Part shown: positions 1 to 12,236 of the stretch, piece by piece
Position numbering within the stretch: the stretch's first letter is position 1
How the letters are laid out: each line of letters begins with the position of its first letter
Source: Clostridiales bacterium
GTDB lineage: Bacteria > Bacillota_B > Dehalobacteriia > UBA4068
Length of the DNA: 12,236 nucleotides
Reading direction: 5' to 3'
Assembly: GCA_009782975.1 (NCBI GenBank)
Contig: WRIA01000003.1
Coordinates: 1 to 12,236 of the forward strand
Made by a program: the position numbers and the translations under genes
The notes under the pieces: model-generated
Told to the model about the DNA's origin: nothing
Seen by the model: the letters and a program-made list of their open reading frames with translations, nothing else
The model's database searches: none

Positions 1-92
1 AAGGCTATATGAGGCTTCTTAACGAAAGCCCCGGCGGCATCGGCTATCAACTGACAAGCAGCCGCGCCTATACTATGGAAGTATTTAACTGA
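1..92 (+). CDS. C-terminal end of an unidentified protein (partial)
   Basis: An open frame enters from the left edge (first full codon at base 3) and ends at TGA 90-92, leaving 29 visible residues that finish ...SSRAYTMEVFN. The other two forward frames stop within the first 20 bases, so this is the only candidate. The stop lies 9 bases before the YukD-like start, and the GAGGTG ribosome site of that gene overlaps the stop codon, so the two genes are probably cotranscribed. The fragment is too short to assign a family. Given the context it could be another type VII secretion component, but nothing in the residues proves it. Confidence 0.55.
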   Translation, partial: GYMRLLNESPGGIGYQLTSSRAYTMEVFN

Positions 93-101
93 GGTGTTGT
101 T

Positions 102-332
102 ATGAGATACATATTTATAACCTTAAAAATGCCGGGCAAGACGCAACTGGATCTTAAAATACCGGCCTTTGTTACCGGCGAAGAACTTTTAAAAATGCTT
201 ACAACTATAACAAAAGGCGGCCTGGCTCCGGGCAGCAAGATACAGGCGGAACCTTTGGGCAGAATACTGGATAACAGCCAGACTCTGGACGCGGAGGGCG
301 TGGGGCAGGGAGCCTTGCTGACCATACTATGA
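102..332 (+). CDS. YukD/EsaB-like ubiquitin-fold protein of type VII secretion
   Basis: A 76-residue cytosolic protein. It starts RYIFITLKMPGKTQLDLKIP, then has a helix-like segment (TGEELLKMLTTI), and ends in a short hydrophobic strand (GALLTIL). Length, beta-beta-alpha order and ending fit the YukD/EsaB family, whose members adopt a ubiquitin-like fold without the conjugation di-glycine tail and regulate or assist Firmicutes ESX-type secretion. No signal peptide or membrane segment is present. GAGGTG at 90-95 serves the ATG at 102. In the Bacillus locus yukD lies next to the WXG100 gene and YukC, whereas here it is about 5 kb upstream of the WXG100/EssC operon, with the surface operon in between. 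The family call rests on length, pattern and context; no search was run. Confidence 0.72.
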   Translation: MRYIFITLKMPGKTQLDLKIPAFVTGEELLKMLTTITKGGLAPGSKIQAEPLGRILDNSQTLDAEGVGQGALLTIL

Positions 333-368
333 TTCTGTGCGCGTAAAATCGTGTTAAAACTACGCGCG

Positions 369-374
369 AAGGAG
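369..374 (+). promoter_or_regulatory. Ribosome site fixing a GTG start at 384
   Basis: AAGGAG lies 9 bases before GTG 384. The longer in-frame choice, GTG 351, has no Shine-Dalgarno-like sequence in the 20 bases before it. This supports the shorter protein. Confidence 0.65.
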
Positions 375-383
375 CGGATTGTT

Positions 384-1211
384 GTGAATATCTCCAACGG
401 AGCGCTTATAACCAAACATAAAGGCCGCCTGTATGTATGCGATCTGGAAAATTATCGGGGCACATATATCCTGGACGAAGAGTGTGGCGTAGCAGGTAGG
501 ATAGAGGGCCTGATGTGGTTTGCCGCCACTCTTGGCACAAGCCTTTATTACAGCGACCAAAGGGATAAGGACTACCTGTATTGCCTGGATACGGAAAGCT
601 TAAGCGAAAATTGCCTGTTAAAAAGGCCTTGCGGATATATAACGGTCTTTGATGACAGACTGTTCTTTCTGGACGAAACAGAAAGCCTTATACATGAGCT
701 AGACCTTAAAACCGGTAAAACGTCCCCTGTGATGAGGGAGCGGGTATCCTCTTTTATCCTTTGGGAAGGGGCGTTCTATTGCGCCTCTGCCAAAGGGCTC
801 TTAAGGTTCGGTTTGTACGGCGGCAAAGGCGATCTGCTTACGGAGCATATCCCTTTATGCCTGGCGTACAGCGCTTTGGGGCCGGTATTTGCCGACGTCT
901 CCCACAATTTTGCCTTAAGCGTCCTTAAGGACGGGCAGCGTACGCCCGATAAAGCAGGCCGCGTAAAAACGCAAAGCCTGGCAGTGGAAGGCCGCTACAT
1001 TTACGCAGCCGATCTTACGGATGATTGTTCCGTAGTAAGGCTGCATACGGAAGGCGGCGGCGCTATAAGGTTTTGCGGGGAAAGGGCGGAGAAACTGCAT
1101 ATAATAGAGGATCACCTGTATTTTTTAAACCAAAACGATAAAAATGCCTGGTATAAAATGCCTTTATCCGGCGGCCGCAGCATACGCTTGCTACCTGCTT
1201 TGCCCTTATGA
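384..1211 (+). CDS. Cytosolic beta-propeller-like protein (DUF5050-type repeats), function unknown
   Basis: A 275-residue protein from GTG 384; the open frame extends 11 codons further to 351 without a ribosome site. The sequence is a series of short beta-strand units of the kind D-x-L-Y/F-F/Y-x-x-x followed by a polar turn and an L-D-L-x-T-G-K or P-L-S-G-G motif. Examples are LYYSDQRDKDYLYCLDTESL (residues 54-73), DRLFFLDETESLIHELDLKTGK (91-112), GRYIYAADLTDDCSVVRL (203-220) and DHLYFLNQNDKNAWYKMPLSGG (243-264). These resemble DUF5050 and related propeller repeats that often act as binding platforms. No signal peptide or membrane helix is visible, so a cytoplasmic location is inferred. It follows the YukD-like gene by 51 bases and probably shares its transcript. 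It carries several cysteines but no recognisable catalytic motif. A role beside type VII secretion is inferred only from position. Confidence 0.6.
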   Translation: MNISNGALITKHKGRLYVCDLENYRGTYILDEECGVAGRIEGLMWFAATLGTSLYYSDQRDKDYLYCLDTESLSENCLLKRPCGYITVFDDRLFFLDETESLIHELDLKTGKTSPVMRERVSSFILWEGAFYCASAKGLLRFGLYGGKGDLLTEHIPLCLAYSALGPVFADVSHNFALSVLKDGQRTPDKAGRVKTQSLAVEGRYIYAADLTDDCSVVRLHTEGGGAIRFCGERAEKLHIIEDHLYFLNQNDKNAWYKMPLSGGRSIRLLPALPL

Positions 1212-1246: not shown

Positions 1247-1262
1247 TGTTTCACGTGAAACA
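1247..1262. promoter_or_regulatory. parS site A1 (ParB/Spo0J binding motif)
   Basis: The 16-mer TGTTTCACGTGAAACA is a perfect palindrome and matches the bacterial parS consensus (TGTTNCACGTGAAACA) at every position. The palindrome extends one base each side (ATG...CAT, 1246-1263). It lies 35 bases after the propeller gene stop. Known role of the motif: nucleation site for ParB in chromosome segregation. Confidence 0.88.
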
Positions 1263-1273
1263 TTCGTTTATAC

Positions 1274-1289
1274 GCCGGTCGCCAGCTAA
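1274..1289 (+). repeat. Conserved core between parS sites of module A
   Basis: GCCGGTCGCCAGCTAA is identical to 5481-5496 and sits at the same offset (12th base of the 48-base spacer) between the two parS sites. The rest of the spacer is only partly alike, with GCGGT shared further on. It may be a second protein-binding site or just the trace of a duplication. Confidence 0.8.
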
Positions 1290-1310
1290 CAGAAGCGGTA
1301 TGGCCTAAAA

Positions 1311-1326
1311 TGTTTCACGTGAAACA
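1311..1326. promoter_or_regulatory. parS site A2 (ParB/Spo0J binding motif)
   Basis: This is a second perfect TGTTTCACGTGAAACA, starting exactly 64 bp after site A1. The 18-base palindrome covers 1310-1327. It ends 28 bases before the AAAGGAGG ribosome site of the SLH gene, so a protein bound here would be in the promoter/leader region of that operon. Confidence 0.88.
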
Positions 1327-1354
1327 TATCCGGACCGCTGGTCGATTAAACTTT

Positions 1355-1362
1355 AAAGGAGG
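1355..1362 (+). promoter_or_regulatory. Ribosome site fixing a TTG start at 1370
   Basis: AAAGGAGG is followed by a 7-base spacer and TTG. The in-frame ATG 1310 lies inside parS site A2 and would place MFHVKH plus 14 further residues in front of a good signal peptide. The TTG start gives a normal exported protein. Confidence 0.85.
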
Positions 1363-1369
1363 CGCCGAA

Positions 1370-2572
1370 TTGAAAAATTTTATTGCGAAGAAAACCGTAG
1401 CGGCATTTTTGGGCATTTTGGCTTTGTGTCTGCCGCTAATCGTAAGCGGCGTTGTTTCGGCGGAGGAAAAAGAGCCGGAAAGAATATATATACCTGCGGG
1501 TGACCGCGTAACCTCCAAAATACAAAAGTACCCTGATGTACCTCAAAGCCATTGGGCCTCCACCTTTGTAATGCGCCTTACCTACGAGGGTGCTATAACC
1601 GGCTACCCGGACGGCGCTTTTGGCCCGGAACGCAGCATAACCCGGGCGGAATTTGTAGCGCTTACGGTGGGCGCTTTGCAGGGCAGACCTCAAGCACCAC
1701 CCGCCGGTCAGCATTGGGCGGCTAATATAATACAAGCCGCGGAGGATAACGGCCTGCTGGAAGCCGGAGAGTTCGCCCCGGATACCTGGAATACGCCCAT
1801 AATACGGCAGGAGATGGCTAAGATAATGACCCGCGCCACCCAATATGTTCAAAAGGAAGCGCCTGTACCCGACACCGGAAGTTATACGGCTAATATAGCG
1901 GATTTTGCGGATATAAGCGAAAGTTACCGGCCCTATATAGCCCAGGCCTATGCCAAAGGTCTGGTAACGGGCTACCCGGACGGCAGCTTTGGCGGAGGGC
2001 GGCAGGCCACCAGAGCGGAAGCCTCCACTATGCTGGTAAGGTTGCTGGATCCCTGTTACCGCCTGCGCGAGATAACCTTCGACCCGGCTGCGGATGTGGC
2101 GGCGGACGGGCGTATGAAGCTGGCCAAGGCAGAGCAATATCTGATGAAAAACCTGCGTAGCCTGCGCTTTTATATGGAAGGCGGCAAGTTTTACTTCGAG
2201 GGCGAAGTGGCGGAGGTGCCGGAAGGATTCAAAAACAACCTTAATATAGCGGTAGAATTTAAAAAAGGTTCCGGTCTGCCAATTGCCAGTTACAGCTCGT
2301 ACCCTTTTAAAACAGACATGGATCTGCCGGATAAAGGCACGTTTAAGGAAGAGATAAAGGGCATGAACAGCCTGGACCAGATAAACTATGTTCAAATAAT
2401 TATGATGGTCGAAGCTCCCGGTCATACCAACAAAGAATACGATAAAAAAAGTTTTGAAATACTCTGGTCGTTTTATTCCATCTACGATAACAGGATAAAC
2501 GTATTTGATTATATTGAAGAAATAAATGCCTCACATAAGTTTTATGACTTTTCTCAGATATTTCAGTGGTGA
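1370..2572 (+). CDS. Secreted S-layer-homology (SLH) domain protein
   Basis: A 400-residue precursor from TTG 1370. Residues 1-31 form a signal peptide: basic KNFIAKK start, hydrophobic core around 10-28, and cleavage after VSA. Three SLH domains follow: about 54-102 (HW near the start, GYPDGAFGPERSITRAEF), 114-157 (degenerate, with IIRQEMAKIM replacing TRAE) and 179-227 (GYPDGSFGGGRQATRAEA). SLH triplets bind pyruvylated wall polysaccharide and anchor proteins non-covalently to the cell wall. The remaining 170 or so residues (about 230-400) are beta-rich, start with RSLRFYMEGGKFYFEGEV, and match no family I recognise; they are presumably the functional part. The gene is first in a two-gene operon, 19 bases before the CARDB-like gene, and is preceded by parS pair A. 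The two proteins may form a wall-anchored complex, which is inference. Confidence 0.88.
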   Translation: MKNFIAKKTVAAFLGILALCLPLIVSGVVSAEEKEPERIYIPAGDRVTSKIQKYPDVPQSHWASTFVMRLTYEGAITGYPDGAFGPERSITRAEFVALTVGALQGRPQAPPAGQHWAANIIQAAEDNGLLEAGEFAPDTWNTPIIRQEMAKIMTRATQYVQKEAPVPDTGSYTANIADFADISESYRPYIAQAYAKGLVTGYPDGSFGGGRQATRAEASTMLVRLLDPCYRLREITFDPAADVAADGRMKLAKAEQYLMKNLRSLRFYMEGGKFYFEGEVAEVPEGFKNNLNIAVEFKKGSGLPIASYSSYPFKTDMDLPDKGTFKEEIKGMNSLDQINYVQIIMMVEAPGHTNKEYDKKSFEILWSFYSIYDNRINVFDYIEEINASHKFYDFSQIFQW

Positions 2573-2591
2573 ACATTAGGAGGCAGTAAAA

Positions 2592-5417
2592 ATGTTTGAA
2601 TTATCATCTGTATCGGCAAAAGGCCGCCTGTTGCAGCTTGCCGTGGCGTTAACGGCTATGCTTGTTTTGTTCTTCATATGGCCGTGCGGGCAAGACCCGG
2701 CCGGTGCGGCGGCGGAAGATGGCCATATGGCAGGGGACGGATATTGGCTTTTGCTGCCGGATACACCGCCAAAAGGGCGGGAGATACTGCTAAACATCAC
2801 ACATGAATTTGTTATAAGCCCCTGGCGCAATACAGACGGTTCCTGGAAGGAGGAGGTAAGCGGTAAAATAATCGACGCGGACAAAAACCTTACGGACGAG
2901 GATATTTTGATACAGGCATTGGAGCGGGAATGGGAATTCAATATGGCGCTCCCCGACGAGGTGGCGGATAAAATAAACGAGGGCTACACGGTAGGGGTAT
3001 CCGCCAAAGCCGCCTGGGGCCTGCAAACGGATATGCTCTTCTACCTGGAGCGGGGGCCATTGCAATACAGGCTGGAAGACGATCGCCTTTATATAAACTG
3101 CTATCCCCGGGCGCAAATGCATCAGGACGTTTATTATCATAAGATAATAGACCGTTTTGATAAAGCAATACCACTGGTGGAACCGCGTTACGGTACAAAT
3201 CCTCATGGCATATACGATCTTGACGGAAAGCCCCTGGGCTCTACCTCCACCTTTATAAACGATGCGGATCTGTTTAAAAAAGGGCAAAACCTCTCCTACC
3301 AACAACAAAAGGAGATACAAAAAGAATTGGAGGAATGTGCGGAAAAAAAATGGATACACTTCTCTCAGATACAGGATGCCAACGGCTACCTTACGGGCCA
3401 TCAGGACGGCAAGCGGCCCTTCGAGATAGGCATTTGGAAGGACGATAATGTTATCTATCGCAACTCCGGCGAAGTAAGGATAGGCAGTGGCGGCAGCTTT
3501 GAGGAAGGAGCCGATATAGGTCTGTGGTTTTGGTATCCGCTGGAATTGACCTTCTTTTTGGAAAATATGGAGGACGTGGCGGTCGTCAGCATAGATTGCG
3601 GGGATCTTGAGCCCTTTGGCACGGCCACAGTCTTTGTAACGGTAGCCAATTACGGCGTAACAGAGCATGACCCCCAACTTAAAGTAACTATACCGGGCAT
3701 AAAAGAAAGCGTAACTACCGTTACCGGCCTAAAGCATAAGGGGGACCCCGATGGCAGGGATGTTAAGACGGTGGAATTCTGGTTTACCGCACCAAAGAGC
3801 GGTTTGCTTTCCATAACTGCGGAAATAAACCCAAACAGGGCCTTTGAGGAAATAAATTACGATAACAATATCCTTACGCTGGAAAACCTGGTGGTAGCGC
3901 TGGAAAACATCCCGCCTTGGATATTGACCAAGGATTTATACTTCAGCCTGGGATCTTCCGTAAGCATATCCGCCGCCAGGTCAGTTACCTGGGATGGCAA
4001 CGCTACCGGCGGCCTTATTGTGGAAAATGTTTCCGGTCCCCCGGATATCTACAATAATTTTGAGGTAAAAAATAATCCTGCTGTAAACGCTCCGCAAAAC
4101 AGTTTTATACGTAACCCGCAAATAACGGCCACCCTGGATAGGGCGGATTTCGGCGACGACCCCAAAGGAGGGTATTTTGGCGACAACCTTGTTCCTTTAA
4201 GCGAAAGTGGCAGGATAACCGGCTACGGCTCGGCCAGCAGGGATTATCATTATACCGTAACGACCCGTTATTCCGACGGAACGCGCGAAAAAGACAGGAT
4301 AACCGGCACGGCCATAGGGCATTTCGGCGCCATAGACGATGAGCGGTCATACGCCTTTGATGTTTACAACGGCCTGGAGGAGCTGCCTTACCAAAAACCG
4401 CTTAATTACGAAAAGCCCTTCGATAGCGGCGCTATGAATATCTTCGCCGAAAAACATAAAAAGCGCAGGCTGCCCGGGGGCAAGGATTCGGAGGATAAGT
4501 TCGATCTGTTTTGGAAGGGCGAAAACTACGATTTTAATGTGGTACGCTGGATGTGCCATCTGGACGAAAACGACGAGGAATACGGCTGGGAAAGCGTGCC
4601 GGGGCAATACATACGCGCCTTTACCGGCCAAAGCAGCGCCACCCTTACCTGGGAGACCGTTAAAACCATGGAGGAACTGTACGGGCCGGACAAGGCCGCC
4701 GTTAAGGCAAATTACACACACGCGGTATTCGCCACGGACAAGCTGCTGCGGGAAAAATATGATTGGCCCATAAAATCGGGATATTATTTCAACCCGGTGG
4801 GGGAATACAAATGCACGGTCTATACGGCGCAGTACAAAAACAGCGAAAGCAAAACAGAAGAACACGCGGAGCTGGTGGATAAAGTAAAAAAAGCCTTCTG
4901 TTACGATTCCGCCCTGCTTTATGTAAGAAAGGATATGGAGCCCTCCAGGCTGGGGGAGATAAAGTGGGGCACCGACGGCAACGGCCTGCTGGTGATAGAT
5001 GCGGGGCCCACGGACAAAGATACCGCCTGGCTGGCAACTACAGCGGCCAGGGAGGAGGACGCGGTTTTGGAGGTAAGCGGTCTGTACAAGGAGGCTATGG
5101 AAGGGTACGGGGAATCGCGCACGGAGGAGAGTTATAGAAAGTACAGGTATATGGAGCGCACGGATGATAGCGTATCCGGGCAGGATATATATTTGGTGGA
5201 GGAAACCACGGTAATATCTTTTAAGGTAGAGGTTCCGGCGGGCAAACTATATACCCATGTAAATATGAAAAACGGGGAATACACGGTACGTGCCAGGGTA
5301 AAGCCTATGGAATTAGCGTTTGACCACCGCGGGAGCAACGGCGCGCTTACAATGGAAGGGTTCAATCTGGATGCCCTTAAAGTAACGGTCAGCGGTTCCA
5401 TGTACGACGACCGCTAA
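2592..5417 (+). CDS. Large exported protein with a CARDB-like domain
   Basis: A 941-residue protein from ATG 2592, with AGGAGG at 2578-2583. Residues 12-30 are a hydrophobic export segment, followed by PAGAAAED, which offers a signal peptidase I site near residue 41. Residues about 328-438 look like a CARDB (bacterial cell-adhesion) immunoglobulin-like domain: DVAVVSIDCGDLEPFGTATV at the start, then VANYG, and an ending with EINYDNN. The N-terminal 300 residues and C-terminal 500 are rich in charged and aromatic residues and have no motif I recognise. Similar very long exported proteins next to SLH proteins are known from thermophilic clostridia (Athe_2463-type), but I cannot confirm kinship. 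There is no LPXTG anchor or C-terminal membrane helix, so it is either released or held by a partner, plausibly the SLH protein encoded just upstream. No terminator is seen after it. Confidence 0.75.
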   Translation: MFELSSVSAKGRLLQLAVALTAMLVLFFIWPCGQDPAGAAAEDGHMAGDGYWLLLPDTPPKGREILLNITHEFVISPWRNTDGSWKEEVSGKIIDADKNLTDEDILIQALEREWEFNMALPDEVADKINEGYTVGVSAKAAWGLQTDMLFYLERGPLQYRLEDDRLYINCYPRAQMHQDVYYHKIIDRFDKAIPLVEPRYGTNPHGIYDLDGKPLGSTSTFINDADLFKKGQNLSYQQQKEIQKELEECAEKKWIHFSQIQDANGYLTGHQDGKRPFEIGIWKDDNVIYRNSGEVRIGSGGSFEEGADIGLWFWYPLELTFFLENMEDVAVVSIDCGDLEPFGTATVFVTVANYGVTEHDPQLKVTIPGIKESVTTVTGLKHKGDPDGRDVKTVEFWFTAPKSGLLSITAEINPNRAFEEINYDNNILTLENLVVALENIPPWILTKDLYFSLGSSVSISAARSVTWDGNATGGLIVENVSGPPDIYNNFEVKNNPAVNAPQNSFIRNPQITATLDRADFGDDPKGGYFGDNLVPLSESGRITGYGSASRDYHYTVTTRYSDGTREKDRITGTAIGHFGAIDDERSYAFDVYNGLEELPYQKPLNYEKPFDSGAMNIFAEKHKKRRLPGGKDSEDKFDLFWKGENYDFNVVRWMCHLDENDEEYGWESVPGQYIRAFTGQSSATLTWETVKTMEELYGPDKAAVKANYTHAVFATDKLLREKYDWPIKSGYYFNPVGEYKCTVYTAQYKNSESKTEEHAELVDKVKKAFCYDSALLYVRKDMEPSRLGEIKWGTDGNGLLVIDAGPTDKDTAWLATTAAREEDAVLEVSGLYKEAMEGYGESRTEESYRKYRYMERTDDSVSGQDIYLVEETTVISFKVEVPAGKLYTHVNMKNGEYTVRARVKPMELAFDHRGSNGALTMEGFNLDALKVTVSGSMYDDR

Positions 5418-5453
5418 AAAACGCAAAAGCAAAAACACGACGCTTACCGCAAA

Positions 5454-5469
5454 TGTTTCACGTGAAACA
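5454..5469. promoter_or_regulatory. parS site B1 (ParB/Spo0J binding motif)
   Basis: This is the third perfect TGTTTCACGTGAAACA, in the gap after the CARDB-like gene. The 18-base palindrome covers 5453-5470. It starts 4207 bp after site A1. Confidence 0.88.
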
Positions 5470-5480
5470 TATCCATACAA

Positions 5481-5496
5481 GCCGGTCGCCAGCTAA
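5481..5496 (+). repeat. Conserved core between parS sites of module B
   Basis: GCCGGTCGCCAGCTAA is identical to 1274-1289 and lies at the same position within a 48-base spacer. Together with the flanking parS sites it makes the second copy of an 80-bp module. Confidence 0.8.
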
Positions 5497-5517
5497 TAAA
5501 GGCGGTTTAAACATAAA

Positions 5518-5533
5518 TGTTTCACGTGAAACA
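5518..5533. promoter_or_regulatory. parS site B2 (ParB/Spo0J binding motif)
   Basis: This is the fourth perfect TGTTTCACGTGAAACA, 64 bp after site B1, the same spacing as in module A. It lies 56 bases before the TTG start of the first WXG100 gene, in the likely control region of the secretion operon. Confidence 0.88.
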
Positions 5534-5546
5534 TTCCTGAAACAGA

Positions 5547-5570
5547 TCAATGGGCACATTTATCCATTGA
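5547..5570. repeat. Perfect 7-bp inverted repeat before the WXG100 operon
   Basis: TCAATGG (5547-5553) and CCATTGA (5564-5570) are exact reverse complements separated by 10 bases. The repeat ends 4 bases before the AGGGAGGGG ribosome site at 5575-5583. It could be a dimeric repressor operator or an mRNA hairpin affecting ribosome access. There is no T-run, so it is not a terminator. Confidence 0.5.
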
Positions 5571-5589
5571 ATAAAGGGAGGGGTAAAAA

Positions 5590-5898
5590 TTGGCGGATAA
5601 AGTAAAGGTATCCCACGCGGAATTTCAAAAGACAGCCGCGGAGCTGCAAGATGTTCTGGATATGCTTAAAAGCTATAAAGGCGAGATGTCCCAAAAATAC
5701 GAATTTATGGGGGAAACCTGGAAGGGCGAGGCCGGCTGCGCTTTTGCGGAGCGTTCCCAAAGTATTATCTCCGGTTTGGAGCTTAACATAGCAAAGCTGG
5801 GTAAGTTTATTCTGGATATCAGGCAAGTGGAAAAGCTATCGGCAGATATGGACAGCCAACTGGCCAAATCGGTAAAGGATAGCCAGACGCGGAGGTAA
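5590..5898 (+). CDS. WXG100 (ESAT-6-like) protein 1
   Basis: A 102-residue protein from TTG 5590, with AGGGAGGGG at 5575-5583 and a 6-base spacer. It has two predicted helices joined by a turn holding the W-x-G motif: helix 1 about 9-38, WKG at 44-46, helix 2 about 48-95. Length and motif position are typical of WXG100 proteins, which form four-helix-bundle dimers and are secreted through, and needed for, type VII systems. No Sec signal peptide is present, as expected. The usual C-terminal YxxxD/E export motif is not visible; the tail is KDSQTRR. It is the first gene of the secretion operon, 5 bases before the cysteine-rich gene. It could be either a structural EsxA-type component or a partner for the second WXG100 protein. 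Confidence 0.88.
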   Translation: MADKVKVSHAEFQKTAAELQDVLDMLKSYKGEMSQKYEFMGETWKGEAGCAFAERSQSIISGLELNIAKLGKFILDIRQVEKLSADMDSQLAKSVKDSQTRR

Positions 5899-6258: not shown

Positions 6259-6564
6259 ATGGCGCAACAGGATATCTACCTGGATTTAGAACAACTTAAT
6301 ACAGATATAATAGTGTTTACCGGCAAAAAAATACAGGATATAGGCCGGGCCATAAATGTCGCCCGGAATACCGCAAACAGTTTGGCGCGCCAAGGTTGGG
6401 AGGGCGACACCCAAGAAGCCTTTGCGGAAAGCTTTTCCCTCTATATCAAGGATATGGAAGCCTTCAGCGATCATTTAAAGGAATTCAACAAACAGTTGAA
6501 AACTATACACGCCAACGGTAAAAGCCTAAGCGGGCAAAGCATAAAAATAGCCTCAAAGCTGTAA
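6259..6564 (+). CDS. WXG100 (ESAT-6-like) protein 2
   Basis: A 101-residue protein from ATG 6259. The ribosome site is weak (a GGGGG run about 10 bases upstream). Helix 1 covers about 8-43, the turn carries GWEGD with W47-E48-G49, and helix 2 covers about 51-90, ending SIKIASKL. It differs from protein 1 in almost every surface residue, so the two are not a recent duplication; they could be homo- or heterodimer partners. No C-terminal YxxxD/E motif is evident. The gene lies 22 bases after the cysteine-rich gene and 54 bases before the EssC-type gene, so it is in the same operon. Isoleucine is coded 8 of 10 times by ATA, in line with the neighbouring genes. Confidence 0.87.
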   Translation: MAQQDIYLDLEQLNTDIIVFTGKKIQDIGRAINVARNTANSLARQGWEGDTQEAFAESFSLYIKDMEAFSDHLKEFNKQLKTIHANGKSLSGQSIKIASKL

Positions 6565-6618: not shown

Positions 6619-9600
6619 ATGGCACAAAAGGAATTTACGCGGCAGCCACGCTTTTTGCCGGAAATGCCCGCGGGAGAAAAAAATATAGGATCCCCTCCGC
6701 CAATGCCGCAAAAGCCGGAGATATCCTGGTTAAGCATAATTCTGCCCCCGCTTATCATGATAGCCGTTACGGTATTCGTGGTGATGAGCGCCCACAGCTC
6801 GTTTATGTTTATCTCACTGGCAATGACAATAGCGGCGCTGATAAATTCTCTTATATCCGTATCCCGGCAAAACAAAAAATACCGGGCAAGCAAGGAACTG
6901 CGGGAAAGCCGCTACCTGCAATATATATCGGATATACGGGCGGAACTGACCATGCAAACAAAACTTCAGGCCGCGGCCATGAGCGAGATGAACCCGGACC
7001 CGGAAGTATGCGTTACCCGCATACGAAACACGGATAGCAAATTATGGGAAAGAACACCGGCCCACAGCGATTTTCTTTCCGCGCGTGCAGGCATGGGCAA
7101 TGTGCCCTTTGCGGTAAAATTATGCTGCGAGCGGCAGCGTTTCGACCTGGAGGAAGACCCTTTGGCCGGGGAACCGGAAAAAATAGCCCTGGATTTCGAA
7201 AAAGTAAATGATGTTCCGGTATGCCTGGATATATATAATGGCGAGATTTGCGGTATAGCGGGGGATAACGAGCGTGTAATAAGCTTGCTTAACGCTGTTA
7301 TGACGCAACTTGTAACCAATCACGGTTATGATGACGTAAATATAGTGCTGTTGCTTAAAGAAGAAAACGTGGAAAAATTGTCCTGGATGAGGTTTTTGCC
7401 CCATGTCTGGGATGCGGAATATAAGATACGCTTTATTTCCTGCGGCGCCGTAATGACCCATCAAACACTGGCTGTTCTTTACGATATACTGCGCGGCAGG
7501 GAGCTTCGCAAAAAAGACGATTCCCGCTCTGCCCCGCTTATGCTGCCCCATTATGTGTTTGTTGTGGATGATAGCTCCCTTCTGGATAAAGAGCCCATAG
7601 CAAAGTATCTGTACGAACCTAATAAAGACCTGGGCGTTTCCAGCTTGTTTTTGGCCGGTAACAAGGCCTATTTGCCTATGAACTGTAAAACGGTTATAGT
7701 AACCGGTGCTAAAGCCCACGAGATAAGCAATAAAGATCATGGCGGTAAAGCCACTTTTACCCCCGACAAGGTGGACGAAAGCAAGCTTGGTTTCGTCGGC
7801 AGGCAGCTGGCATCCTTAAGGATAAAAAGCTCTTTTTCTCACTTTGGTCTGCCCAGATACATAACCTTGAACCGTATGTACGGCATAAAAACGCCGGAGG
7901 AAATAGACCTGCGGGACAAATGGCTTAATAACAGGACTTATATGGGCATGAGCGTGCCTGTAGGGGCCCGCGCGGGCGGGGAATTGTTTTACCTGGATAT
8001 GCACGAAACAGGCTTTGGCCCTCATGGGCTGGTGGCCGGTACCACCGGCTCCGGCAAAAGCGAGATGTTGCAGTCTTTGATGATCTCGCTGGCCATTAAT
8101 TATCACCCCCACGACGTGGTATTTGTTTTGATAGATTATAAAGGCGGCGGTATGGCGGATGCCTTTAAAGGCCTGCCGCATCTGGTGGGGACAATTACCA
8201 ACCTGGGGGGCAATCAAACCGCCCGGGCCCTTATCTCCATAAAAAGCGAGTTGCAAAGGCGGCAAAAAACATTTTCCCATTACGGCGTAAACAACATAGA
8301 CAAATACCAAAAGCTGTATCACAATGCCGGGGCCGCTTTGCCCATACCTCATCTTATAATGATAGCCGACGAATTTGCCGAGCTTAAGGCAGAGCAGCCG
8401 GAGTTTATGAAGGAGCTGGTAAGCGCGGCGCGGGTAGGGCGCAGCCTGGGCGTGCATCTGATACTGGCTACCCAAAAGCCGGGCGGCATAGTTGACGATC
8501 AGATATGGAGCAACTCCAAATTCAAAATATGCCTTAAGGTACAGGATGCCGGAGATAGCAGGGATGTTATAAAAAGGGACGATGCCGCCTATATAAAGGA
8601 GCCGGGCCGGGCCTATATACAGGTGGGCAATGACGAGTTTTTCGAGATGTTTCAATCGGCCTATTCCGGCGCGGATATCGACCCTTTAAACGAAAAAACG
8701 CGAAAAGAAGAACATCATATTTACAAAGTGGCCCTAAACGGGCGCTGCGATAAAGTTTACCCGCAAAGGGAGGAAAAAATTACCGAAACAGAATTGCCCA
8801 GCCAGCTTAAAGCCATGACAGAGCATATTATGAATACTGCTGCAAATATGTCTTTATCCGCGCTGCCGGGCCCCTGGCCGCCGCCTTTGGAGGAAAGCCT
8901 GTATTTAGAGGATATACTGGATACAAACGGCGGTTTCGATTATAAGACAGGGGAATGGAGGAAGTGCGCCGCAGACACACCGACAGCTATAAAGCCGGTG
9001 GTGGGCATTTACGACGACCCTCGTAATCAGATACAGGATAAGCTGGCTCTGGATTTTACGGCAAACGGTAATTTGTTCGTTTACGGTATGCCCGGCAGCG
9101 GAAAAACGGTGTTTTTGCAGACCCTTTGTCTCTCGTTGGCCCATAGCTATACCCCGCAGGAGGTCAGCATATATGTAATGGATCTCGGCGGCGGCGCCTT
9201 TAAGCGATGGGAAGCCTTGCCCCATATAGGCGGCGTAATTACGGTGGAGGAAGAACACAGGCTAAATCAATTTATGGTCTTTATATTCCGCATGATAGAG
9301 GAAAGAAAAAAAGCCTTTTTAAGCGCCGGCGCGGATAGTTTTGCCGGGTTTAAGGAAACATCCGGGCAACGGATGCCGGCGGTATTCGTTCTGCTGGATA
9401 ATTACACCGCTTTGGCGGAGGTTTACGATAATATCGCCGAACAAATGATAACTTTGGCGCGGGAAGGCTTTAAATACGGCATATATATAGTTGCCGCCGC
9501 CAATCAGGAAAGGGCCTATCGTTTTTCCGCCAATTTTAAAATGGCGGTGACCTTCGAAATGAACGATAAAGGGGATTACGAGGCCATAGTGGGCAGATGT

Positions 9601-10524
9601 CATGGTTTGGAGCCCGCGAAAAATGCCGGGCGCGCCCTGCTGCGCAACAATCCCCCGCTGGAGTTCCAAGCGGCCTGCTGCCGCTTTAGGGAAAAAAGCC
9701 CGGAGGATATACTGGAAGTATTCGCTTCCTTTGTAAAAGTAGGGCGCATAAGACCGGCCTTGCCCATACCGCAGATGCCGGATGTCGTAGATATATTTGA
9801 TTTAAACAGGCATACTTACAGCAGCGTTATAAATGTTGGGTTGTTAAACGATAATTTACAGCCCGCCGCACTGGATCTGGATATCAACCATTTGTTGCTG
9901 GTAACGGGCGAACCCGGCTGCGGCAAAAGTACCCTGCTTGTTTCTCTGGCCGGTCTGCTTTTAGGCCTTGCAAGCGCCAGGGTATATATAAAAGACAGCG
10001 CCTCATCCGGCCTTTATCCCCTGCTGGGCATGGATAATGTGACAGATATAGGGGGTATGGGCGACGAATACGCGTTTGCGGAGGAAATAGACGCTTTGCT
10101 GCAGGACCGCCGCACACAAATGCTAGAATACCGCAAAAACGGCCGGGATATATCCGCGTTAAAGGATAGCTGGGAGCATATAGTATTTATAGTGGACGAT
10201 CTGGCGGATTTTGTTGAAAAAAGCGCGGGGCCTCTGCTTGACCTGCTGGAAAGGATAGCCAAAAAGGAGTACGGCCTAAAAATATCTATCTGGGCCGCGG
10301 GCAATAACAGTGACATCAGCGTTTCCTACGACAGCTTTGTAAAGGCCTTTAAAAACGCGCAATGCGGCGTTTTATTAGGCAGCCTTAAAGAGCAGGGCGT
10401 ATTTAATGTAAGGATGCCCTACGGCAGCTACGAAAAAAAGGAATTTGCCGTTGGGGAAGGCTACCTGGTGCTTAAAAACAAATACGCCGGTATAAAGGCG
10501 GCGGCGGATATCCGCCTGCTGTAA
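6619..10524 (+). CDS. essC: EssC/YukB-type type VII secretion ATPase (FtsK/SpoIIIE family), no FHA domains
   Basis: A 1301-residue membrane ATPase that powers substrate export through the type VII channel. After a 35-residue cytosolic start come two membrane helices (about 38-56 and 60-80). Three FtsK/SpoIIIE modules follow. Domain 1: Walker A GTTGSGKS at 474-481, Walker B LIMIADE ending D584-E585, then LATQKP. Domain 2: GMPGSGKT at 823-830, Walker B FVLLDN with D927-N928. Domain 3: GEPGCGKS at 1097-1104, Walker B IVFIVDD with D1193-D1194. Only domain 1 keeps the catalytic D-E pair, as is usual for the family, where the later domains are less active. Typical Bacillus/Staphylococcus EssC has about 1480 residues with two N-terminal FHA domains; these are absent here and the start is well supported (GGGAG at 6605-6609 before ATG 6619). 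The gene ends the 5590 operon, or is followed by WXG100 protein 3. Confidence 0.93.
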   Translation: MAQKEFTRQPRFLPEMPAGEKNIGSPPPMPQKPEISWLSIILPPLIMIAVTVFVVMSAHSSFMFISLAMTIAALINSLISVSRQNKKYRASKELRESRYLQYISDIRAELTMQTKLQAAAMSEMNPDPEVCVTRIRNTDSKLWERTPAHSDFLSARAGMGNVPFAVKLCCERQRFDLEEDPLAGEPEKIALDFEKVNDVPVCLDIYNGEICGIAGDNERVISLLNAVMTQLVTNHGYDDVNIVLLLKEENVEKLSWMRFLPHVWDAEYKIRFISCGAVMTHQTLAVLYDILRGRELRKKDDSRSAPLMLPHYVFVVDDSSLLDKEPIAKYLYEPNKDLGVSSLFLAGNKAYLPMNCKTVIVTGAKAHEISNKDHGGKATFTPDKVDESKLGFVGRQLASLRIKSSFSHFGLPRYITLNRMYGIKTPEEIDLRDKWLNNRTYMGMSVPVGARAGGELFYLDMHETGFGPHGLVAGTTGSGKSEMLQSLMISLAINYHPHDVVFVLIDYKGGGMADAFKGLPHLVGTITNLGGNQTARALISIKSELQRRQKTFSHYGVNNIDKYQKLYHNAGAALPIPHLIMIADEFAELKAEQPEFMKELVSAARVGRSLGVHLILATQKPGGIVDDQIWSNSKFKICLKVQDAGDSRDVIKRDDAAYIKEPGRAYIQVGNDEFFEMFQSAYSGADIDPLNEKTRKEEHHIYKVALNGRCDKVYPQREEKITETELPSQLKAMTEHIMNTAANMSLSALPGPWPPPLEESLYLEDILDTNGGFDYKTGEWRKCAADTPTAIKPVVGIYDDPRNQIQDKLALDFTANGNLFVYGMPGSGKTVFLQTLCLSLAHSYTPQEVSIYVMDLGGGAFKRWEALPHIGGVITVEEEHRLNQFMVFIFRMIEERKKAFLSAGADSFAGFKETSGQRMPAVFVLLDNYTALAEVYDNIAEQMITLAREGFKYGIYIVAAANQERAYRFSANFKMAVTFEMNDKGDYEAIVGRCHGLEPAKNAGRALLRNNPPLEFQAACCRFREKSPEDILEVFASFVKVGRIRPALPIPQMPDVVDIFDLNRHTYSSVINVGLLNDNLQPAALDLDINHLLLVTGEPGCGKSTLLVSLAGLLLGLASARVYIKDSASSGLYPLLGMDNVTDIGGMGDEYAFAEEIDALLQDRRTQMLEYRKNGRDISALKDSWEHIVFIVDDLADFVEKSAGPLLDLLERIAKKEYGLKISIWAAGNNSDISVSYDSFVKAFKNAQCGVLLGSLKEQGVFNVRMPYGSYEKKEFAVGEGYLVLKNKYAGIKAAADIRLL

Positions 10525-10606: not shown

Positions 10607-10912
10607 ATGGCAACAAACGCGGATATACAGGTTTCTATAGAGGCAAAAGAAGCGTCGAAAAAAAAGTTTAACACAGAGCGGGAAAATATCGTGGCCAGCC
10701 TGGAAAGGCTGCAAAGGGAAGTAAATAATGTGCAGTCCTGGTGGAAGGGCGAATCCGGCGCGGCGTTTATGGAAAAATTTACCAAGGTAAAGGCGGAGAT
10801 AAAAGCCGGTATAGAAAGCTGCGTGGCGGATTATTGCGCTTTGATGGACGCTACGGTGGATGCCCATCTGGAAGCGGACAGGCAGCTGGCAGCCAAAGTA
10901 AGGTCTATGTAA
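10607..10912 (+). CDS. WXG100 (ESAT-6-like) protein 3
   Basis: A 101-residue protein from ATG 10607. The ribosome site AAAGGAGGTGAG (10592-10603) is almost fully complementary to the 16S rRNA tail, the strongest in the window, so high translation is expected. Helix 1 is about 8-43, the turn is SWWKGESG with W46-K47-G48, and helix 2 is about 51-98, ending AAKVRSM. No signal peptide or clear YxxxD/E tail is present. It is closest in style to canonical EsxA (QSWWKGESGAAF). It sits 82 bases after the ATPase gene and is followed by a strong terminator, so it closes the secretion locus. The high predicted expression and separate position suggest that this may be the main secreted substrate. Confidence 0.9.
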   Translation: MATNADIQVSIEAKEASKKKFNTERENIVASLERLQREVNNVQSWWKGESGAAFMEKFTKVKAEIKAGIESCVADYCALMDATVDAHLEADRQLAAKVRSM

Positions 10913-11193: not shown

Positions 11194-12236
11194 ATGAAAA
11201 CGAAATCGAGACGGCTCTTATCAACCCTGCTTACGGTGATGATGGCGTTCGGCCTGTTTGCGGCTTTCCCGCTGACGGCAGGCGCGGCGGATCAGGGAAC
11301 TGTTATGGCAAACTTTGCGAAAGAACAATTTGCCGCCCAAAAGGCTTATTGTTTGGCTCAATTAGGAGACGCCTACTCTACAGGTCTATGCAGCTCCTTC
11401 AGAGAAGCGTTTGGCAGCGCGAAATGTGTTTACGAATCATTCCCTACGGGCACGTCTGATTTCAGCACCTACTTGTTAAACGCAAGAGCTCAGGGAGCCG
11501 ATGTTATTTTCGCACCAGTTCAAACGGAAGCCGGTGTTCTGATATTCGAGCAGGCCGATTCCATGGGTCTTGGTGTGCCGATACTTGCGGGCGGCACTTG
11601 GGATTCAGACGTAATTTTGAATGCCGCGAAGAGTAAAGATGTCGACATATATGTGGTTACAGCCGACGCTACCACTATCAAGAAATGCAACACCACCACC
11701 GGTAAGTGGGATGTAGTAAAGCAATCCTCGGCCGGAGCAACCCTTAGCCCGACGTCTGTGGCCTTTGAAAAAGGCAACAGCGGAGATATTACAATAAGCG
11801 GGGATACGGCCGGGCATAGCCCGCAGAATATCAAAAATGGCGACTTCACGCTTCAACCGGATACGGATTTCGTCATAAACAGTATGACTTCCATGACGCT
11901 TAAAGCCGCTTATCTCAACACGCTTGATGTAGGCACTCACACGCTTACTTTTAATTTCAGCGGCGGGACAAGCCCCACCTTGACCATCACCGTAACAGCG
12001 GCAGCGTCTATTGCGCCCACAATTACCGGACCGACAGCGATGAGCCTCACAACCGGGTACTCGGCGACTTCGACGGGCGCTTATACCGTTACGGGCGATC
12101 CCGCGCCGGAGGTCACAAAGGCATCAGGCGACGGTAAGATCACATGGAACAAAGATACAAAGAAACTTGATATAGCTGCGGGGCTTACAGCAGGTAAATA
12201 TGAGGCCATATTAAAGGCAAGCAGCACGGGTAAACC
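11194..12236 (+). CDS. Exported chimeric protein: binding-protein fragment, X2-like and Ig-like domains (partial)
   Basis: The frame is open from ATG 11194 (AGAGGAG just upstream) to the right edge, giving 347 visible residues. Residues 1-32 are a signal peptide (MKTKSRR, hydrophobic core, cleavage at AGAA). Residues about 35-156 match the middle part of periplasmic-binding-protein-6 (LivK-like, branched-chain amino acid) proteins: QGTVMANFAKEQF, LGDAYSTGL, SDFSTYLLNARAQGADVIF and GVPILAGGTWDS. The usual first lobe and the C-terminal part of the family are missing. Residues about 183-270 resemble an X2/CBM_X2 Ig-like domain (LSPTSVAFEKG...DVGTHTLTFNFSGG...LTITV). A further Ig-like domain starts near 276. 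A binding lobe joined to surface-display domains is unusual; it may be a repurposed adhesin or sensor. The unit is separate from the secretion operon (terminator before it, own promoter). Isoleucine codon use is mixed (7 ATA, 5 ATT, 4 ATC), unlike the ATA-rich secretion genes. Confidence 0.8.
   Translation, partial: MKTKSRRLLSTLLTVMMAFGLFAAFPLTAGAADQGTVMANFAKEQFAAQKAYCLAQLGDAYSTGLCSSFREAFGSAKCVYESFPTGTSDFSTYLLNARAQGADVIFAPVQTEAGVLIFEQADSMGLGVPILAGGTWDSDVILNAAKSKDVDIYVVTADATTIKKCNTTTGKWDVVKQSSAGATLSPTSVAFEKGNSGDITISGDTAGHSPQNIKNGDFTLQPDTDFVINSMTSMTLKAAYLNTLDVGTHTLTFNFSGGTSPTLTITVTAAASIAPTITGPTAMSLTTGYSATSTGAYTVTGDPAPEVTKASGDGKITWNKDTKKLDIAAGLTAGKYEAILKASSTGK

Follow-up and report, generated by a model that had tools for sequence, protein, structure and literature searches.

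Why should a type VII secretion and surface-protein locus carry perfect copies of parS, the site at which the chromosome-segregation protein ParB loads? The question was raised by a 12,236-nucleotide stretch of a Clostridiales bacterium (positions 1 to 12,236 of contig WRIA01000003.1, assembly GCA_009782975.1; hereafter the window), for which a sequence-only reading had offered two answers: an origin-proximal centromere zone, or regulation of the adjoining operons by a ParB-family protein. We consider it likely that the four sites are genuine parS, predicted to bind ParB, and that the window lies in the origin-proximal centromere zone of an uncultured Bacillota chromosome, whose parS set would have spread into a pilus and type VII secretion cluster.

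Two copies of a paired parS module

A scan of the whole window found the parS 16-mer TGTTTCACGTGAAACA without mismatch at 1247-1262, 1311-1326, 5454-5469 and 5518-5533 (sequence matches, assigned to no strand), and no fifth site appeared when up to three mismatches were allowed. In 200 shuffles of the window the mean number of parS matches was 0.04 and four was never reached. The hexamer CACGTG occurs only four times in the window, each time inside one of these sites. These results bear out the four perfect copies announced by the sequence-only reading, as well as its statement that the window holds no other CACGTG-centred copy. The window 16-mer is the consensus parS used in PMC7383237, and all four sites match this 16-bp palindrome. 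Like ParB at parS, the ParB-like Firmicutes protein Noc binds a related 16-bp palindrome, the Noc-binding site (NBS). The NBS consensus (TATTTCCC-GGGAAATA) is spread widely over the genome according to PMC7383237. The window sites are parS and not NBS: none has the central CCCGGG of the NBS (TATTTCCCGGGAAATA), all four having a central CACGTG.

The intergenic placement of the sites was also confirmed. Two lie in the gap 1212-1369, from the stop of a DUF5050 gene to the likely start of a gene for an SLH-domain surface protein, and two in the gap 5418-5589, from the stop of a gene for a 941-aa protein to the start of a WXG gene. The nominal ATG start of the open reading frame at 1310-2572 overlaps a parS site. 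A TTG at 1370 is the likelier start of the SLH gene, because AAAGGAGG stands just before it and the protein then starts with a signal-peptide-like stretch. The earlier claim that the sites stand just upstream of operons holds for their position ahead of the SLH and WXG genes, the operons themselves being deduced from gene order.

The four parS sites belong to an 82-bp module present twice (1246-1327 and 5453-5534), which the earlier reading had not noticed. Each copy consists of an 18-bp palindrome, a 10-bp linker, a 26-bp core, a second 10-bp linker and a second 18-bp palindrome, with 64 bp from parS start to parS start. In module 1 these parts occupy 1246-1263, 1264-1273, 1274-1299, 1300-1309 and 1310-1327; in module 2 they occupy 5453-5470, 5471-5480, 5481-5506, 5507-5516 and 5517-5534 (modules without strand, both cores given on the + strand). 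The modules end 43 bp (module 1) and 56 bp (module 2) before the likely start codons of the SLH and WXG genes.

Identity between the two copies is unevenly distributed. The palindromes are identical at 36/36 positions (18/18 and 18/18) and the core at 23 of 26, compared with 7/20 in the linkers (3/10 and 4/10), which keep their length and not their sequence, and 21/80 in the outer flanks (80 bp). Palindromes plus core differed from the linkers with a Fisher p of 7e-08 and the core alone with p 0.0004, both values being generous because the core borders were set after the alignment had been seen. A fairer test was given by 500 shuffles of the two spacers, in which the best 26-base ungapped match never exceeded 17, against 23 observed. 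Linkers and outer flanks did not differ in identity (p 0.42). Given this unevenness, the palindromes, the core and the spacing look kept while the linkers drift. The extended 18-bp palindrome is present in 4/4 window sites and in only 4/28 parS of the relatives described below, which fits the copying of one module; it was given no weight as a sign of function.

We also searched for the core outside the window. Its first 16 bases, with up to two mismatches, gave 48 matches in the 35 genomes of the order of the relative G001 (two with one mismatch, none exact), compared with 45 for a reversed control; the core was therefore rejected as a known dispersed motif. The exact core was absent from the viral contigs collection, parS followed by the core from both the viral_contigs and the genome_contigs collections, and the 82-bp module had no match in plasmid and phage records. 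An RNA element was rejected as well. Long RNA stems are predicted in both intergenic regions (z -4.8 and -5.4) because the two palindromes pair with each other; folded alone, the 48-nt middles were indistinguishable from shuffled sequence (z -0.27 and 0.39), and a comparison of the window with Rfam returned nothing at E up to 1. All four sites include a TGAAAC, and in both modules GGTC comes 15 bases after the TGAAAC of the first site. This arrangement is weakly similar to an extracytoplasmic function (ECF) promoter; TGAAAC is inherent in parS.

parS sites, gene order and the origin in related genomes

The closest genomes with available DNA were the metagenome-assembled genomes Nt197P4bin8 (genome G001, essC locus L019), Nt197P3bin103 (G002, L020) and Th196P4bin59 (G003, L031), which we take to be termite-gut bins. 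Of these, G001 has the largest part of the gene set in common with the window. Apart from the window's own, the closest EssC proteins were 64-75% identical. From protein similarity and shared gene order, we infer that the window species belongs to the family of G001.

In that family, 13 of 20 genomes hold one to seven perfect parS, 27 sites in total, and G003 holds one. All 28 perfect parS of these 14 relatives lie within 3.9 kb of an origin or par gene, 27 of them within 0.8 kb (measured to the closest hit of a dnaA, yidC, jag, mnmE, mnmG, rsmG, parA or parB query, low coordinate to low coordinate). Seven further genomes with essC were searched whole: G040-G043 hold seven perfect parS, none of them farther than about 7 kb from parA or parB, a one-mismatch parS is all that G039 holds, and G037 and G038 have none. 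By contrast, 80 essC loci, fetched with up to 10 kb on either side and many of them shorter, contained no perfect parS, and a single one (L097) contained a one-mismatch site. A general association of parS with type VII secretion was therefore rejected.

The window thus shares with the chromosomal parS clusters of Bacillota (Spo0J/ParB type) an identical 16-bp consensus, several copies and tight pairs. In the relatives examined these clusters lie at or near rsmG-parA-parB. Unlike them, the window has two pairs with a common core, enclosing a pair of surface genes within a type VII/pilus cluster, and no par gene was found in its 12 kb. Pairs of parS with a gap of 36-60 bp (52-76 bp apart) were absent from the 35 genomes of the order; of 398 genomes sampled from the phylum, 5 had them, each with a pair adjoining parA or parB. 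In two genomes, G138 (L208) and G364 (L209), groups of perfect parS lie on both sides of parAB, six sites per stretch read, much as the window modules flank the SLH/941-aa pair. Another locus (L128, contig C115 of G014) carries four perfect parS 180-181 bp apart at 5325-5882, just before parA, perhaps in a tandem repeat.

The SLH/941-aa gene pair, flanked by the modules in the window, holds a different place in G001. There, the DUF5050 gene (to 3595) is followed about 40 bp later by the WXG gene (from 3636), without parS between them. The homologues of the pair (identity 61% for the SLH protein and, for the 941-aa protein, 36% in one part and 56% in the other) lie elsewhere, on contigs C180/C32, among pilus-type genes. 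Since the contig ends of G001 overlap exactly (80 nt between C180 and C32, 85 nt between C32 and C155), the joined order could be read as a 207-aa gene, an aldolase gene, three pilus-type genes, SLH, 941-aa, TadA with other pilus-type genes, YukD, DUF5050, WXG and EssC.

The pilus-secretion cluster of G001 therefore adjoins the 207-aa gene and the aldolase gene. We found the 207-aa gene in 13 of the 35 genomes of the order, G001 included (short partial matches only, in G021, G029 and G031, were left out of the linkage count). Its distance from rsmG/parB is about 1 kb in G002 (where the aldolase is missing beside it), 24 kb in G018, 24 kb in G019 and 7 kb in G036. This marker was origin-linked in four of the five genomes with contigs long enough to judge. 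No origin gene was present near it in G017, G024, G025 and G035, on contigs of 6-25 kb that are too short to judge (the G025 contig was read except for its last 0.3 kb). Because the adjoining 207-aa gene is near origin/par genes in four genomes, the G001 cluster is probably origin-flanking; by extension from G001, in a second step, the window would be origin-proximal as well.

Possible explanations: centromere spread, regulation or mobile DNA

ParB, once loaded at parS, spreads along the DNA on either side and recruits SMC, and ParA moves it; for some species a review gives up to 20-23 parS near the origin (PMC7333895). Extra parS are tolerated only within a certain region surrounding the native cluster (PMC7333895 and PMC5815017), which measures about 500 kb in Caulobacter (PMC5815017). 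For the window, we propose that the DNA flanking the origin harbours a Tad-like pilus and type VII secretion cluster, and that the parS set would have grown into this cluster as two copies of the paired-parS module, at both junctions of the SLH/941-aa pair. ParB would then load at the window sites and slide over the flanking genes, and the sites would help to recruit SMC and to segregate the origin; an effect on transcription, if any, would be a by-product. Spread of the centromere by module duplication is the most economical account. The modules are a real feature of the sequence, with an unusual layout, and ordinary chromosome biology, here met in an unusual place, most likely accounts for them. 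Should the window prove origin-proximal, it would document a centromere that extends outward as copies of a paired-parS module enter a secretion/pilus cluster, a case relevant to the way in which sets of parS enlarge.

The centromere-zone answer of the sequence-only reading is thus supported indirectly, by the 28/28 parS at origin/par genes in relatives, by the synteny with G001 and by the 207-aa marker in four genomes. Several results weigh against it. The family membership of the window rests on inference, because essC is present in only two of the 35 genomes of the order of G001, and in 7 of the 20 family genomes, whose assemblies may be incomplete, no perfect parS was found. The essC loci of the closest relatives, L019, L020 and L031, contained no parS with up to two mismatches (L020 covering only 0.6 kb before essC). 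In G023, the 47-kb contig of the 207-aa gene carries no origin gene over its whole length (the gene has 45 kb of contig to one side and 2 kb to the other), and in G001 the par contig, C156, is not joined to the secretion contigs, the 207-aa gene being on C180. Moreover, the eight origin/par query proteins had no match in the 12-kb window, whereas all 28 parS of the relatives lie within 3.9 kb of such genes. Closeness to parA/parB is not required of every parS. The profile scans agree with the protein search and with the earlier statement that parA and parB are not in the window: no ParB domain was present among the Pfam/NCBIfam results for the main open reading frames (EssC was scanned against NCBIfam only and DUF5050 against Pfam only).

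An alternative gives the modules a mainly regulatory purpose: chromosomal ParB, or a regulator of the ParB family encoded elsewhere, would repress or activate the SLH and WXG-EssC operons, with the core serving as a promoter or second operator. Both modules stand at gene starts, at the distances given above, and at positions where genes that had moved as a pair would require new promoters; the core is conserved beside the palindromes with the spacing kept and the linkers not. VirB of Shigella, put forward as a precedent by the sequence-only reading, is a member of the ParB family. It is plasmid-encoded and dedicated, whereas no such gene was found in the window and the secretion type differs. 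Precedents for regulation are in print: VirB is described as a CTP-using protein activating virulence genes (PMC10676424), mutation of one parS of Streptococcus pneumoniae induced comCDE expression, and 1166 genes changed on ParB loss in Pseudomonas aeruginosa (both PMC7022226; the pneumococcal work is that of Attaiech 2015, as cited in PMC7022226 and PMC10516426). The pneumococcal and P. aeruginosa cases show ParB to be capable of acting on gene expression.

As in the window, the pneumococcal parS(-1.6 deg) stands near an operon with no housekeeping role; in S. pneumoniae it can affect expression of that operon (PMC7022226). There a single parS lies 5 kb from comCDE, whereas the window has pairs just upstream of both gene groups. 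Against regulation stand the lack of a ParB-like gene in the window, the 80 essC loci with no perfect and a single one-mismatch site, the near-equality of core-start matches and reversed control, and the absence of parS followed by the core from genome_contigs. In addition, a promoter scan gave no site within either parS-bearing intergenic region at the threshold used, and ParB loss caused minor transcriptome changes in other species tested (PMC7022226). We regard a primarily regulatory role as unlikely.

A bolder form of this idea seems to us somewhat less probable still. Here, the 82-bp module would be a composite ParB-operated control element, with paired parS at fixed spacing round a promoter or operator core, copied to the heads of the surface and type VII operons. 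The origin-segregation machinery would then switch both, for example by silencing them while ParB coats the origin region and releasing them after segregation. Among the titles, abstract starts and term counts obtained for parS with type VII secretion, or with secretion and surface protein, none was about parS at a type VII locus. If the modules do also act on transcription, they would offer a natural example of a chromosome-segregation protein stationed where type VII secretion and surface operons begin.

The preferred centromere reading places the sites on the chromosome, and we regard as improbable that the window instead belongs to a plasmid, a chromid or an integrated element carrying a parS array of its own. 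Tight arrays of perfect parS do occur on viral-collection contigs, 18 of which have pairs at a gap of 40-60 bp, but none of these 18 has neighbouring parS 64 bp apart, parS followed by the core was absent from that collection, and plasmid and phage records had no match to the module. Replication and mobility families had no match among the main open reading frames scanned (Pfam/NCBIfam), and in G001 the same gene set is contiguous, through the contig-end overlaps, with the aldolase gene and three tRNA genes. It is slightly more doubtful again that the 82-bp repeats are a dispersed intergenic repeat, or the trace of a recombination that moved the SLH/941-aa pair, merely containing parS-like palindromes. 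In favour, the repeats are direct and stand at the two junctions of that gene pair, which is placed differently in G001; against this, their identity is concentrated in the palindromes and core instead of being evenly spread, and the searches of relatives and collections turned up no repeat resembling them.

Genes of the window and of the related clusters

The window genes from 3..92 to 10607..10912 are on the + strand. The window opens with the 3' end of a gene (3..92) resembling the last pilus-type gene of L019, both proteins ending in RAYTMEVFN; presumably it is TadE-like. It is followed by YukD, a type VII secretion component (102..332; Pfam YukD, E 2.8e-08), and by the DUF5050 protein (351..1211; Pfam), whose L019 counterpart adjoins the WXG gene. 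The SLH-domain surface protein, read from the TTG start with its signal-peptide-like N-terminus, extends over 1370..2572 and matches Pfam SLH in two stretches (E 9.6e-27). The 941-aa protein follows (2592..5417), without a Pfam or NCBIfam match, and its gene adjoins the SLH gene in G001 also.

Beyond the second module lie a WXG100-like protein (5590..5898) that falls below the Pfam and NCBIfam cut-offs, a 110-aa protein with a 45% identical homologue in L019 (5904..6236), a WXG100 protein (6259..6564; Pfam), the type VII secretion ATPase EssC (6619..10524; NCBIfam TIGR03928, 1219.7 bits) and a further WXG100 protein (10607..10912; Pfam). With an EssC ATPase, WXG100 proteins and YukD, the locus is of the Ess/Yuk type of Firmicutes. 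Positions 11194-12234 encode a periplasmic-binding-protein-like part and a CBM_X2 domain (Pfam) of a protein cut by the window end.

Pilus-type genes accompany this secretion system in other genomes. In the more distant L033 a Tad-like pilus set (1442-13906) lies directly before YukD, DUF5050 and EssC, and in G001 such a set adjoins the same genes across C180-C32-C155, which suggests a conserved pilus/type VII supercluster. By domain, these pilus-type genes of the relatives include a T2SSE ATPase (TadA) and two others with AAA/CbiA, one of them below the Pfam cut-off; we presume that they correspond to TadA-TadE, Flp, CpaB and TadZ.

The family of the 941-aa protein has five relatives besides the query's own entry (P0002-P0006), at 32-44% local identity. 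Copies of its gene elsewhere were limited to 1 of the 43 genomes of the class (G001), a set that includes the 35 of the order. The family recurs beside EssC or SLH genes, and its members may work with type VII secretion or with the pilus as a partner not yet recognised. Partial matches to the 941-aa protein were observed after EssC in L033, to its last third, and in L034. The homologue P0002 and the EssC protein P0008 are both listed on a contig of 70,462 bases, probably one and the same.

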